Positions 11,571 through 47,611 of a stretch of DNA of 64,000 nucleotides are shown here, piece after piece. Position 1 is the first letter of the stretch. Every line of letters begins with the position of its first letter. The DNA comes from Nocardioides sp. TRM66260-LWL (GTDB taxonomy: Bacteria; Actinomycetota; Actinomycetes; Propionibacteriales; Nocardioidaceae). Under the pieces are notes generated by a model. The model worked only from the letters and a program-made list of their open reading frames with translations. It ran no database searches and was not told the origin of the DNA. A program made the translations under genes and the position numbers. The stretch is from NCBI RefSeq assembly GCF_020075545.1, contig NZ_JAIQZK010000003.1:62001-126000 (forward strand), given 5' to 3'.

Positions 11571-14500
11571 TCAGACGTTGCGCCGGTAGGCACCCCCGAC
11601 CTCGAAGAACGCCTCGGTGACCTGGCCGAGCGAGCAGACGCGCGCGGCGTCCATGAGCACCGCGAAGACGTTCTCGCCCGACGTCGCCGCCGCCTTGAGT
11701 CGCGCGAGCGCCTGCTGCGCCTCGGTGGCGTGCTCGGCCTGGAAGGCCCGCACCCGCTGCAGCTGGGAGGTCTTCTCGGCCTCGGTGGCTCGGGCCAGCT
11801 CGATCTCCTGCGGCTCGGCCGAGTCGGCGTGCGGGTTGCGGAAGGTGTTGACGCCGATGATCGGCAGGCTGCCGTCGTGCTTGCGGTGCTCGTAGAGCAT
11901 CGACTCGTCCTGGATGCGGCCGCGCTGGTAGCCGGTCTCCATCGCGCCGAGCACGCCGCCGCGCTCGTTGATGCGGTCGAACTCCAGCAGCACGGCCTCC
12001 TCGACGAGGTCGGTGAGCTCGTCGATGACGAACGAGCCCTGCAGCGGGTTCTCGTTCATCGCCAGGCCCCACTCGCGGTTGATGATCAGCTGGATCGCCA
12101 GCGCCCGGCGCACCGACTCCTCGGTGGGGGTGGTGACGGCCTCGTCGTAGGCGTTGGTGTGCAGGCTGTTGGCGTTGTCGTAGATCGCGATCAGCGCCTG
12201 CAGCGTGGTGCGGATGTCGTTGAAGTCCATCTCCTGCGCGTGCAGGGAGCGGCCGGACGTCTGCACGTGGTACTTCAGCTTCTGGCTGCGCTCGCCGGCG
12301 CCGTAGCGCTCCTTCATCGCCACGGCCCAGATGCGCCGCGCGACGCGTCCGATCACCGAGTACTCGGGGTCCATGCCGTTGGAGAAGAAGAACGACAGGT
12401 TGGGCGCGAAGTCGTCGATCGCCATGCCCCGCGCGAGGTAGGACTCGACGTAGGTGAAGCCGTTGGCGAGGGTGAACGCGAGCTGGCTGATGGGGTTCGC
12501 CCCGGCCTCGGCGATGTGGTAGCCCGAGATCGACACCGAGTAGAAGTTGCGGACGTCGTGCTCGATGAACCACTGCTGGATGTCGGCCATGCACCGCAGC
12601 GAGAACTCGGTGGAGAACAGGCAGGTGTTCTGCCCCTGGTCCTCCTTGAGGATGTCGGCCTGGACGGTGCCGCGGACGGTGCGCAGCGCCTCGGCCGGGT
12701 CGACGCCCCGCTCGCGGGCCTGGTCGAGCACGGTGTTGAGGAAGAACGCCAGGACGGTCGGTGCGGGGCCGTTGATCGTCATCGAGACGCTCGTGGTGGG
12801 CGCGAGCAGGTCGAAGCCGGCGTACAGCTCCTTCATGTCCTGCAGCGTCGCCACCGAGACGCCCGAGGTGCCGACCTTGCCGTAGACGTCCGGACGCTCG
12901 TCGGGGTCGCGGCCGTAGAGGGTGACGGAGTCGAAGGCGGTGGAGAGGCGGGTGGCGGGCTGACCCTCGGAGAGCACCTTGAACCGGCGGTTGGTGCGGG
13001 CGGGGTCGCCCTCGCCGGCGAACATGCGGGCGGGGTCCTCGCCCTCGCGCTTGAACGGGAACACGCCGGCGGTGAACGGGAACCGGCCGGGCACGTTCTC
13101 GGCGCGCCAGAACCGGACGAGCTCGCCGTGGTCCTCGTAGCGCGGCAGCGCCACCTTCGGGATCGCGTTGCCCGAGAGCGACGTGCGGCGCGGGGCCGCG
13201 GCGTACTCGGCGACGAGCGCCGGCCAGCCGTCGATCTGGTCGCGGATCTCGCGGGGGAGGTCGGCGCGGGCGTCGGCCAGCAGGGCGTCGATCTCGCTCC
13301 GCTCGGTGAGCTCCTCGGCCACCGACGCGAGGCGCTGGACGCGTCGGGCCGCCGCGGCGAGCTCGGCGGTGCGCGCGTGGTAGCCGCGGACGGTCTCGGA
13401 GATCTCGGCGAGGTACCGCACCCTGCTGGCCGGCACGAGCTGCCGGATGCGGGTGGACGTCTTCTGCCCGACCGGCGCGAGCGTGCCCTCGGCGGCCGGC
13501 AGGCCCTTCTCGACCAGGAGGTCGCGCAGGTGCTGGTAGAGCGCGGTGACGCCGTCGTCGTCGAAGGTGGCCGCCGAGGTGCCGAAGACCGGCATGTCGG
13601 AAGGCTGCTGGCCGAACGCCTCGCGGTTGCGCACCAGCTGGCGCCCGACGTCGCGCAGGGCGTCCTCGGCGCCGCGGCGCTCGAACTTGTTGATCGCCAC
13701 GACGTCGGCGAAGTCGAGCATGTCGATCTTCTCCAGCTGCGAGGCGGCGCCGAACTCCGGCGTCATGACGTAGAGGGAGGCGTCGACGAACGGGACGATC
13801 GCGGCGTCGCCCTGGCCGATGCCGGGGGTCTCGACGATCACCAGGTCGAACCCCGCCGCCCGGACGACGGTGAGCACGTCGTCGAGGTGGTCGGGCAGCT
13901 CGTGGGCGCCGCGGGTGGCGAGCGAGCGGAAGAGGACGCGGTCGCCGTCGAGGCTGTTCATCCGGATGCGGTCGCCGAGCAGCGCCCCGCCGCCCTTGCG
14001 CCGGGTGGGATCGACGGCGATGACCGCGACCCGCAGCTTGTCCTGCTGGTCGACGCGCAGGCGCCGGACGAGCTCGTCGGTGAGCGAGGACTTGCCCGAC
14101 CCGCCGGTGCCGGTGATGCCCAGCACCGGACGGTGCGAGCGGGCGGCGCGCAGGGCGTCCAGCAGCTCGGGTGGGAGCGTGCCGAGCTCGGCGCCGGTGA
14201 TCGCGCGGGACACGGCCAGGCGGTCGCCGGCCAGCACCTGCTCGGCGGTGACCGGGCCCTGCTCCCACAGGTCGAAGTCGCAGTCGCGGACGACGGTGTT
14301 GACCATGCCGGCCAGCCCGAGGCGCTGCCCGTCCTCGGGGGAGAAGATCGTGACGCCGCTGGCCCGGAGCCGCTCGATCTCGGCCGGGACGATCACGCCG
14401 CCGCCGCCGCCCACCACGCGGACGTGCCCGGCGCCGGCCTCGCGCAGCCGCTGGACGAGGTACTCGAAGTACTCGACGTGGCCGCCCTGGTAGCTGGAGA

Positions 14501-44730: not shown

Positions 44731-45510
<780 letters not shown>

Positions 45511-45538
45511 GCCCCGACCTCACCCCTCCGACCTCACC

Positions 45539-45574
45539 CCTCCGGCCGCCCGGCCTCGTCCCGGCGGCCGGAGG
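45539..45574 (+). terminator. Terminator of the pst operon
   Basis: Arms CCTCCGGCCGCC / GGCGGCCGGAGG around a 12-base loop, 29 bases after the pstB stop; preceded by a tandem CTCACCCCTCCG repeat. Confidence 0.7.
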
Positions 45575-45586
45575 CGTCTGCGGGGC

Positions 45587-45592
45587 TAGGTT
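45587..45592 (+). promoter_or_regulatory. -10 box of leaderless PRODH-like gene
   Basis: TAGGTT ending seven bases before the ATG at 45600. Confidence 0.5.
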
Positions 45593-45599
45593 GGGACGC

Positions 45600-46346
45600 A
45601 TGGCCGTCACCGCCGCGCTCGTCCGTCGCCCGCCGGTCGTGGCGAACGCGGCCGAGGTCGTCGACGTCGTGGCCGAGCTGCACGCGCGCGGCCTGGCGGC
45701 GAGCCTGGAGCACCGGGACCCGGGCGATCCCGCGGCGTCGACCGCGCTGCTCGCGGCCCTCGGGACGGCGGGCCTCGCGCGCGGCGTGGACGTCTCCGCG
45801 CGGGTCGACGTGCTGGCGCCGGAGGAGCTCGCGGCGCTCTGCTCCGCCGTGCGCCAGGTCGGCGCGACGGTGACGCTCGACCCCGGCGAGGCGGTCGATC
45901 CCGGCCGGGCGCTCGAGCTCCTGGGTGCGCTGCGCCGCGACCACCCCGACCTCGGCGTCGTCCTGCGCGCCCGGCTGCGTCGCACCGAGGACGACTGCCG
46001 CCAGCTCGCCTACGAGGGCTCGCGGGTGCGGCTGCGCAAGGGCGCGCGACGACCGGGCGGCGACGGCGTCCACGCCGACCGGCACCAGGTCGATCTCGCC
46101 TACGTGCGCTGCCTGCGGGTGCTGCTCGAGGGAGCCGGCCACCCCGTCGTCGCCACCCGGGACGACCGGCTGCTCGCGATCGCGCGCTCGCTGGCCGGAC
46201 GCGCCGATCGTGCCCCCGGCACCTACGAGCTGCAGCTGCGGCACGGCGTGGGCCAGGCCGAGCAGGAGCGGCTGGCCGCCGCGGGGGAGCGCGTGCGGGT
46301 GCACGTGCCGTGGGGCTCCGCCTCGCGGTGGACGCCCGCGACCTGA
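45600..46346 (+). CDS. Degenerate proline-dehydrogenase-like protein
   Basis: A 248-residue protein that follows the FAD-binding barrel of proline dehydrogenase but lacks key parts. Recognisable are LGVVLRARLRRTEDDCRQLA, VRLRKGARRP (normally VRLxKGAY), HPVVATRDDRLLAIA (ATHD) and YELQLRHGV...RVRVHVPWG (normally YVPYG). The N-terminus is about 45 residues short, and the frame ends at SASRWTPAT where the proline-binding helix with RRxxER should follow. FAD binding is doubtful and substrate binding improbable. It sits 47 bases before proC, the opposing step of the proline cycle. Frame is intact, so it may have a non-catalytic role. Confidence 0.68.
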   Translation: MAVTAALVRRPPVVANAAEVVDVVAELHARGLAASLEHRDPGDPAASTALLAALGTAGLARGVDVSARVDVLAPEELAALCSAVRQVGATVTLDPGEAVDPGRALELLGALRRDHPDLGVVLRARLRRTEDDCRQLAYEGSRVRLRKGARRPGGDGVHADRHQVDLAYVRCLRVLLEGAGHPVVATRDDRLLAIARSLAGRADRAPGTYELQLRHGVGQAEQERLAAAGERVRVHVPWGSASRWTPAT

Positions 46347-46393
46347 CATCCTTCGCCTCGTCCCCGGAACCCCGACAGGGAGCGAGACCCGCC

Positions 46394-47206
46394 GTGAGTG
46401 CTGACGCCCAGACCGCCATCCTCGGCGCCGGGGTGATGGGCGAGACCCTGCTGTCGGGTCTCGTCCGCGCCGGCCGTCGCGTCGACCGCCTGCTGGTCGG
46501 CGAGAAGCGCGCCGAGCGCGCCGCCGAGCTCGAGGAGCGCTACGGGGTGGCGGTGCTCGGCAACCGCGCCGCCGCCGAGCGGGCCACGACGATCGCCCTG
46601 GTCGTCAAGCCGCAGGACATGGCCGAGCTGCTCGCCGAGATCGCGCCCGCGCTCGGCCCGGGCCGGCTGCTGGTCTCGCTCGCGGCCGGCATCACCACCG
46701 CCTGGATCGAGGAGCGGGTGCCCGAGGGCGTCGCGGTCGTGCGGGTCATGCCGAACACGCCGGCCCTGGTCGACGAGGGCATGGCGGCGGTCTCGCCCGG
46801 CTCGCACGTCAGCGAGGAGCAGCTCGCGGAGGCCGAGGGCCTGCTCTCCAGCGTGGGCCGCGTCGTACGCGTGCCGGAGCGTCAGCAGGACGCGGTCACC
46901 GCGGTGTCCGGCTCGGGGCCGGCGTACCTCTTCTACGTGGTGGAGTCGATGATCGAGGCGGGCGTGCACCTGGGCCTGCCGCGCACCACGGCCAGCGAGC
47001 TGGTCGTCCAGACGCTCGTGGGCTCGGCGAAGATGCTGCGCGAAACCGGCACGCACCCCACCGTCCTGCGCGAGCAGGTGACCAGTCCGGCCGGCACCAC
47101 CGCGGCCGCCCTGCGCGAGCTCGAGGCACACGGCGTCCGGGCGGCGTTCCTGGGGGCGATGGAGGCCGCGCGCGACCGGTCGCGGGAGCTCGCCGGCGGC
47201 TCCTGA
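46394..47206 (+). CDS. proC: Pyrroline-5-carboxylate reductase
   Basis: A 270-residue enzyme making proline from pyrroline-5-carboxylate with NAD(P)H. TAILGAGVMGETLLSGLVRAG (residues about 5-25) is the Rossmann motif, VVKPQDM and MPNTPALVDEGM the conserved active-site strands, and TAVSGSGPAYLFYVVESM and LREQVTSPAGTTAAALREL the dimer-forming helical signature. Length is normal. GTG at 46394 follows AGGGAGCGAG. It lies behind the PRODH-like gene. Confidence 0.95.
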   Translation: MSADAQTAILGAGVMGETLLSGLVRAGRRVDRLLVGEKRAERAAELEERYGVAVLGNRAAAERATTIALVVKPQDMAELLAEIAPALGPGRLLVSLAAGITTAWIEERVPEGVAVVRVMPNTPALVDEGMAAVSPGSHVSEEQLAEAEGLLSSVGRVVRVPERQQDAVTAVSGSGPAYLFYVVESMIEAGVHLGLPRTTASELVVQTLVGSAKMLRETGTHPTVLREQVTSPAGTTAAALRELEAHGVRAAFLGAMEAARDRSRELAGGS

Positions 47207-47285
47207 GGGCGGGCGGACGCCCTGCGCCGACGACCCGTCGCGGGAGGGTGGTCTGGACAGATGCAAGCCGACACGCCGCTCAGGG

Positions 47286-47336
47286 GGTGGGGAAGTTGTT
47301 CAACTCTTCCCCACCAGTCACACCAGGCCCTATTCT
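47286..47336 (+). promoter_or_regulatory. Palindrome and -10 box upstream of the HTH gene
   Basis: GGTGGGGAAG / CTTCCCCACC arms (47286-47315) enclose TTG-TT-CAA, then TATTCT (47331-47336), a good -10. The palindrome occupies the -35 area and may be an autoregulatory site; it could also end the proC transcript. Confidence 0.5.
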
Positions 47337-47407
47337 CACGCCTACGTGGCCGCTGCCGCGCCGGTGGGGAAGCCGGCGCACGTGCCGCACAAGAAAGACG
47401 GTGCCCC

Positions 47408-47611
47408 ATGGTGACCCCTCCCTCTGACATCGGCGACGGCCAGTTCCTGACCATCGCCGAGGTCGCTGCCCGTGTCCGCGTCTCGAAGATGACCGTCTAC
47501 CGCCTCGTGCACAACGGAGACCTCCCGGCGGTGCGCGTCGGTCGTTCGTTCCGCGTGCTCGAGAAGGACGTCGACGAGTACATCCGCAAGAGCTTCTACG
47601 ACGCGGGCTGA
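47408..47611 (+). CDS. Excisionase-type helix-turn-helix DNA-binding protein
   Basis: A 67-residue MerR/Xis-like winged-helix protein. FLTIAEVAARVRVSKMTVYRLVHNGDLPAVRVGRSFRV (residues about 12-49) is the full HTH plus wing, ending DVDEYIRKSFYDAG. The same small protein is conserved next to proC in many actinobacteria and is related to, but not, BldC. In Streptomyces a similar excisionase-like gene lies near bldN and is a BldD target; an equivalent developmental role is inference. ATG at 47408 has only a weak ribosome site. Confidence 0.88.
   Translation: MVTPPSDIGDGQFLTIAEVAARVRVSKMTVYRLVHNGDLPAVRVGRSFRVLEKDVDEYIRKSFYDAG

Follow-up and report, generated by a model that had tools for sequence, protein, structure and literature searches.

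The gene in front of proC in Nocardioides sp. TRM66260-LWL is probably a non-catalytic remnant of a proline dehydrogenase (PRODH), rendered redundant by a second PRODH of the genome and held mainly by cis-acting signals in its DNA. In our reading of the sequence, the best-supported retained part is indeed the DNA, namely the gene's own promoter and, in its 3' end, an element that resembles a promoter for proC. The window, which is the whole stretch of 64,000 nucleotides analysed here, comprises bases 62001-126000 of contig 10 in a genome of 3.9 Mb (Table 1). Its 248-codon open reading frame (ORF) matches Pfam PF01619 (Pro_dh) over residues 61-241 with 46.9 bits against a cut-off of 27 bits, which places it by descent in the proline dehydrogenase superfamily, and its matches in the PDB are the PRODHs of Thermus and Deinococcus, over residues 85-240. 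Intact proC follows after 47 nt. The earlier note on this DNA rightly recognized a PRODH-like gene before proC, but the interval that it gave (45600-47206) spans both genes. The searches brought up no close relative of the species; among the matches listed, the nearest proC is 86% identical. The gene before the degenerate ORF (44731-45510), which we take to be pstB-like, has only matches of 28-32% among the other 152 loci of the survey described below, in the stretch fetched for each, and a rearrangement may therefore have occurred just upstream. A count of five loci with pstB before proC was discarded, since one of them is the window itself and the other four reach only this identity; as the ORF next after these four ATPase genes resembles, by eye, the one preceding PRODH in N. 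cremeus, they are other ABC ATPases.

Table 1. Features of the degenerate PRODH-proC locus, in window coordinates.
Feature	Position	Strand	Basis
-10 element TAGGTT, leaderless promoter of the degenerate PRODH gene	45587..45592	+	TANNNT statistics
Degenerate PRODH-like ORF, 248 aa	45600..46346	+	Pfam, PDB matches, alignment, AlphaFold2, Foldseek
Arg68 codon, aligned with the Lys of SLKLS (alignment gap close by)	45801..45803	+	
RLRKGAR, degenerate RLCKGAY (Tyr to Arg)	46029..46049	+	
VATRDDR, degenerate VATHDPR (His to Arg)	46149..46169	+	
Out-of-frame helix alpha8 remnant (likely), RLAVDARDLTSFASS	46319..46363	+	Shuffle-tested resemblance, DNA string inside
ACCTGACATCCTTC, conserved 3' element, proposed proC promoter	46341..46354	+	Conservation; function inferred
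proC, intact, 270 aa, GTG start	46394..47206	+	

The damage to the protein extends to positions that matter for catalysis. The Lys column of SLKLS, which we take to be the catalytic Lys of the literature, holds Arg in the window copy and Lys in 135/135 complete canonical copies; KGAY, whose Tyr we take to be the Tyr described at the substrate site, has become KGAR. Moreover, the Gln of the LQ motif is replaced by Arg, ATHD reads ATRD, the Tyr of PYG is Trp, and helix alpha8 is missing from the frame together with both residues of its Arg pair. The active-site Lys, the KGAY Tyr and the alpha8 Arg pair, three marks of a functional PRODH, are all absent, while the LDMED Asp, the KGA Lys and the E.Q motif survive. 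Of the two barrel motifs that the earlier note described as kept, RLRKGA (46029-46046) and VATRDDR are present, but both are damaged compared with RLCKGAY and VATHDPR; the lack of an RRxxER helix in the frame was borne out. The N-terminal part is absent only as regards the helical arm, and not as regards the barrel: the AlphaFold2 model contains all eight strands, alpha8 being the sole barrel helix missing, and has a pLDDT of 90 and a pTM of 0.87, although its input alignment included intact relatives, which would favor a confident barrel. Foldseek returned PRODH structures at the top, with TM scores of 0.78-0.84 normalized to the model's length, so the (beta-alpha)8 barrel of PRODH type is found in the predicted structure. 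The window copy shares this fold and its sequence with the monofunctional PRODHs of Thermus thermophilus (2g37/2ekg/5m42) and Deinococcus radiodurans (4h6q/4h6r), but, unlike them, is without catalytic Lys, KGAY Tyr, ATHD His, arm and alpha8. With catalytic residues gone and the fold, as predicted, kept, it has one mark of a pseudoenzyme; with arm and alpha8 lost relative to intact orthologues, and a likely out-of-frame remnant behind the stop, it also has one of a pseudogene. The NCBIfam equivalog ProDh_Thermus does not discriminate here, since an intact relative (250 bits) also falls below the cut-off of 500 bits, as does the window copy (68 bits).

The active-site Lys is described as common to all PRODHs (PMC13155685), and a Thermus PRODH variant without the arm and the last 22 residues, Arg288 and Arg289 included, is described as forming catalytically impaired dimers (PMC6017737). 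The Thermus deltaABC protein of the latter paper resembles the window copy in that arm and Arg pair of alpha8 are absent; however, it is a laboratory construct with its other active-site residues intact, and the window copy has lost those too. It is extremely improbable that the window gene encodes a proline or imino-acid dehydrogenase that still works, through an unusual active site: the predicted barrel and the kept LDMED Asp, KGA Lys and E.Q motif would suit such an enzyme, whereas the loss of the active-site Lys, KGAY Tyr, ATHD His and both alpha8 Arg residues, and the impairment of the Thermus variant, argue against it. We conclude with high confidence that the window protein would no longer oxidize proline. 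Its non-catalytic nature has good support, both from the loss of active-site residues and from the presence of an intact PRODH elsewhere in the genome, for which the earlier note had proposed a search.

This other PRODH, on contig 12, has all motifs and adjoins a P5C dehydrogenase (TIGR01236, 780 bits; L196:2971-6883). Beside the pair, on the opposite strand, lies an ORF whose appearance, judged by eye, suggests a PucR/CdaR-type regulator. A second PRODH match occurs in 10/10 surveyed genomes with a degenerate copy vs 16/135 with an intact one (Fisher 6e-9, without removal of kinship and with the 16/135 counted by hand; one of the ten, G216, has a single PRODH match in the Pfam search). Such a second PRODH next to P5C dehydrogenase would make the proC-linked copy redundant.

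The survey of PRODH-like genes beside proC that the earlier note called for was carried out on 153 loci, i.e., the window and 152 genomes, these being the genomes with a listed proC place plus G104, G228 and G035, located through the PRODH match (proC has a match in 194/196 genomes, and the survey covers those just defined; G186 is cut by a contig end and G035 is without proC on its stretch). A PRODH-like gene is found at 146/153 loci and none upstream of proC at 7. Scoring at 19 positions including the key residues, the active-site set is intact in 136/153 loci (135 complete copies and G186, canonical as far as the contig goes), and degenerate in nine relatives and the window; a tenth degenerate relative, G144, was added later and stands outside this tally. 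In the genus as a whole, 211/215 genomes have a Pro_dh match, and the loci read outside it, three of the same family and eight of the same order, are canonical in 11/11 cases. A profile of the degenerate copies run against 294 genomes of the family placed eight degenerate copies at the top. N. cremeus (L003) exemplifies the ordinary arrangement, with a full PRODH (SLKLS, LDMED, KGAY, ATHD, RRLAERP) directly before proC. The window shares with it the place before proC, the leaderless promoter and the 3' element, and differs in length (248 vs about 310 aa), in its lost active site, in the 47 nt from stop to proC and in having pstB upstream instead of an ABC-2-like ORF; aligned with N. cremeus and other near PRODH copies, it has 43-48% identity. 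Judged by sequence comparison, the window gene is the degraded form of the PRODH that normally precedes proC in the genus. The earlier note saw in the position before the opposing enzyme a sign of a special role. With an intact PRODH there in 136/153 loci the position is inherited and gives no such hint by itself. Two further arrangements were seen. In G112 (L057) some 1.6 kb separate an intact PRODH from the proC downstream of it, yet the place immediately ahead of proC is taken by a stub that carries the 3' element, a layout reminiscent of an insertion; in another genus of the family (G331:C41:11952-12875) a PRODH reads with one in-frame TAG.

The degenerate copies of the relatives form a clade (G174, G106, G160, G208, G155, G216, G166, G104, G228 and G144; L044-L050, L054, L055, L203). 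Like the window copy, they have lost the Lys and the KGAY Tyr, have a second PRODH match, stand before proC and carry the 3' element; in contrast to the window copy, whose end looks frame-shifted, 9/10 keep the frame to the end, and 7/9 overlap the start of proC by 4 nt vs 5/135 canonical copies. The copy of G216 is frame-shifted, and that of G174 carries a 27-residue insertion near the C-terminus. The proC tree places G102, G014 and G182 within the degenerate group (98/96); in these three, deletion has left only stubs of PRODH. Pairwise dN/dS within the clade is 0.27-0.69 (36 pairs), vs 0.03-0.49 for pairs among 12 hand-picked canonical genes; for proC, these 36 pairs give 0.05-0.26. The two tested clade copies, G106 and G166, look as constrained as working enzymes. 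The PRODH tree groups the window copy with this clade (97/100). A shared origin is nevertheless the less favored reading: the window branch is very long, its place is unresolved in the PRODH tree without the degenerates, the proC tree puts the window outside the clade, and AU tests do not reject this separation (p 0.21 and 0.16). Separate origins are probably to be preferred, as far as these trees go.

The open frame of the window gene, called intact in the earlier note, is a 248-aa ORF as described but constitutes weak evidence of retention, since the frame is open already from 43710, 71% of 24 simulations of neutral decay at GC* 0.95 stay free of stops, and the C-terminus has the look of a frameshift. 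In the window, the match to the DNA profile of intact genes ends at 46311; behind the stop, the out-of-frame RLAVDARDLTSFASS aligns with the canonical RLAERPQNLTFFARS of relatives. The protein score of this alignment is weak alone, being equalled by 43/1000 shuffles and 11/320 other window stretches, and so is the ungapped DNA score (4/150 random stretches as good). However, ACCTGACATCCTTC differs at a single position from ACCTGWCATTCTTC, the string in the 3' end of canonical genes, and lies at the expected place, which makes homology of the out-of-frame end to the canonical alpha8 region likely. With up to two mismatches allowed, 0.05 matches to ACCTGWCATTCTTC are expected in the window and two were found; the other, also with one mismatch, is at 12387-12400 on the opposite strand. 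Helix alpha8 was probably lost through a frameshift, and compensated frameshifts inside the ORF received no support.

The rates of change along the window branch (dN 0.45, dS 0.40, dN/dS 1.14; 20 nearest genomes by proC) contrast with those of canonical branches (dN 0.079, dS 0.189) and of the window's own proC (dN 0.084, dS 0.252). Simulations of neutral change that keep GC3 near 0.95 give a dN/dS near 2, 24% identity and a second-position GC of 0.84, while the window copy, with a GC3 of 0.952, has a second-position GC of 0.548 and is 46.5% identical to a consensus drawn from 20 near relatives. At each of three GC settings, none of 200 neutral runs had replacements as conservative as those of the window copy. 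The share of hydrophobic positions kept is 0.80, a value reached by 5, 1 and 0 of 200 neutral runs at the three settings, vs neutral means of 0.65-0.69 and 0.90-0.95 in six constrained or intact copies; the ratio of second- to first-position changes (1.05, neutral 1.16-1.27) is indistinguishable from neutral. The window copy lies between neutral simulations and constrained genes, and the dN/dS of 1.14 together with the conservative replacements points to a constrained past with relaxation for at least part of the branch. The conservative replacements may stem from an older constrained phase or from present constraint.

The second of these options bears on a retained pseudoenzyme, a bare PRODH barrel that would bind FAD, P5C, proline or ProC and tune proline metabolism, much as the earlier note had suggested in proposing a binding or regulatory role. 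The non-catalytic part of that proposal stands. The confident predicted barrel and the conservative replacements are consistent with the rest, as are, in the sister clade, the frames kept in 9/10 copies, the apparent constraint on both tested copies and the 4-nt overlap with proC in 7/9; in addition, FAD binding was unaffected by arm truncation in Thermus PRODH (PMC6017737). Against it stand the branch dN/dS of 1.14, the frame-shifted C-terminal end, and, in relatives, the frameshift of G216 and the three deletions to stubs, which are the kind of random decay that the earlier note would have counted against its own proposal, even if two clade copies look constrained. We consider a retained pseudoenzyme possible but unlikely; the idea is weakened for the window copy and has a stronger standing in the sister clade.

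The DNA signals seem to be better preserved than the protein. The leaderless promoter recognized in the earlier note is supported: TAGGTT ends 7 nt before the ATG, is the only TANNNT between 45501 and 46400, and belongs to a class present 5-9 nt before the start in 102/107 genes with a clean start vs 11/3060 random positions. A sigma-70 consensus scan of 45300-47500 gave nothing. The window and each of the nine surveyed degenerates retain the upstream TANNNT; the stubs of G102, G014 and G182 lack it, so the upstream promoter is not indispensable.

The second signal, ACCTGACATCCTTC, has the core CTGnnAnnnT at 46343-46352 and includes the stop TGA of the degenerate ORF. CTGnnAnnnT is found within 130 nt before proC in 11/11 degenerate copies (the window, G144 and the other nine) vs 12/1700 background windows; TANNNT is absent from this interval in all eleven. 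Among the 7 loci without PRODH, four have CTGnnAnnnT, two have TANNNT instead and G145 has neither. In the canonical genes the element is visible in codon usage (134 canonical genes with proC for codon -11; tail test: 34/135). Codon -11 is TCA or ACA in 70/134, whereas elsewhere in these PRODH and proC genes TCA makes up 56/4394 Ser codons and ACA 52/5138 Thr codons, and the third position of this column is the most A/T-rich of all PRODH columns (0.55 vs a mean of 0.03). CTG precedes codon -11 in 70/70 genes with TCA or ACA vs 28/64 others, and a TANNNT lies between codon -11 and proC in 2/70 of the former vs 38/64 of the latter (Fisher 7e-14); on the tree, this trade-off keeps its direction in most pairings, with only five independent pairs available, and falls short of significance. 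Among the nine degenerates, the eight with an intact frame have AGA (five) or TCA (three) as this codon, although these genes otherwise use AGA for 2/446 Arg codons and TCA for 0/210 Ser codons. Nucleotide conservation at this place goes beyond that of the protein, as would be expected of a proC promoter in the 3' end of PRODH. Another genus of the family has the element in 3/3 loci, other families in 0/6. As an observation on the stubs, the rare-codon element CTGWCATTCTTC of the last PRODH codons, which resembles a proC promoter, is kept there after deletion of the gene.

We infer from this conservation that the 3' element is an extended -10 promoter of proC. TGATCT often follows CTGWCA at 16 nt, and CTGWCA could on that account be a -35 box, which we regard as less likely. 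A translated leader, whose frame would stay open only to bring ribosomes to proC, would suit the 7/9 degenerates with a 4-nt overlap (5/135 canonical); it does not fit the window with its 47-nt gap and is not favored. The 3' element also bears on the two remaining readings of the gene. In G102 it is all that is left, the codons to either side having disappeared, which speaks against a retained protein. Plain decay, in which the gene would be a functionless pseudogene awaiting deletion, fits the branch dN/dS near 1, the truncation and frameshift and the losses in relatives; it is nonetheless improbable, given a 3' element in every degenerate copy and in stubs, far above background, and the upstream -10 kept in the window and nine surveyed degenerates.

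The preferred reading, a redundant remnant held mainly by its DNA signals, can be put as follows (Table 1). Active-site residues, the N-terminal arm and, by a probable frameshift, alpha8 were lost from the redundant copy, and the remnant would stay through its own leaderless promoter and the proC-serving promoter-like element in its last codons. The window protein is most likely decaying and stands before proC by inheritance. A broader proposal, which we put forward as doubtful, is that PRODH pseudoenzymes arose at least twice before proC in one genus given a second PRODH in the genome, act as proteins on ProC or the handling of P5C, and have a coding end that doubles as a proC promoter. In the literature searched, no PRODH pseudoenzyme was found and no paper contained both 'proline dehydrogenase' and 'pseudoenzyme'.

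In all, about 15 relatives display the stepwise loss of an enzyme, from dead in frame to frame-shifted to stub, while the promoter-like element in its last codons survives, which offers a testable case for why broken genes linger beside needed ones. In GC-rich genomes, this cautions against assigning a role to every degenerate frame that is open, and the sister clade provides a natural set in which PRODH pseudoenzymes may be tested.
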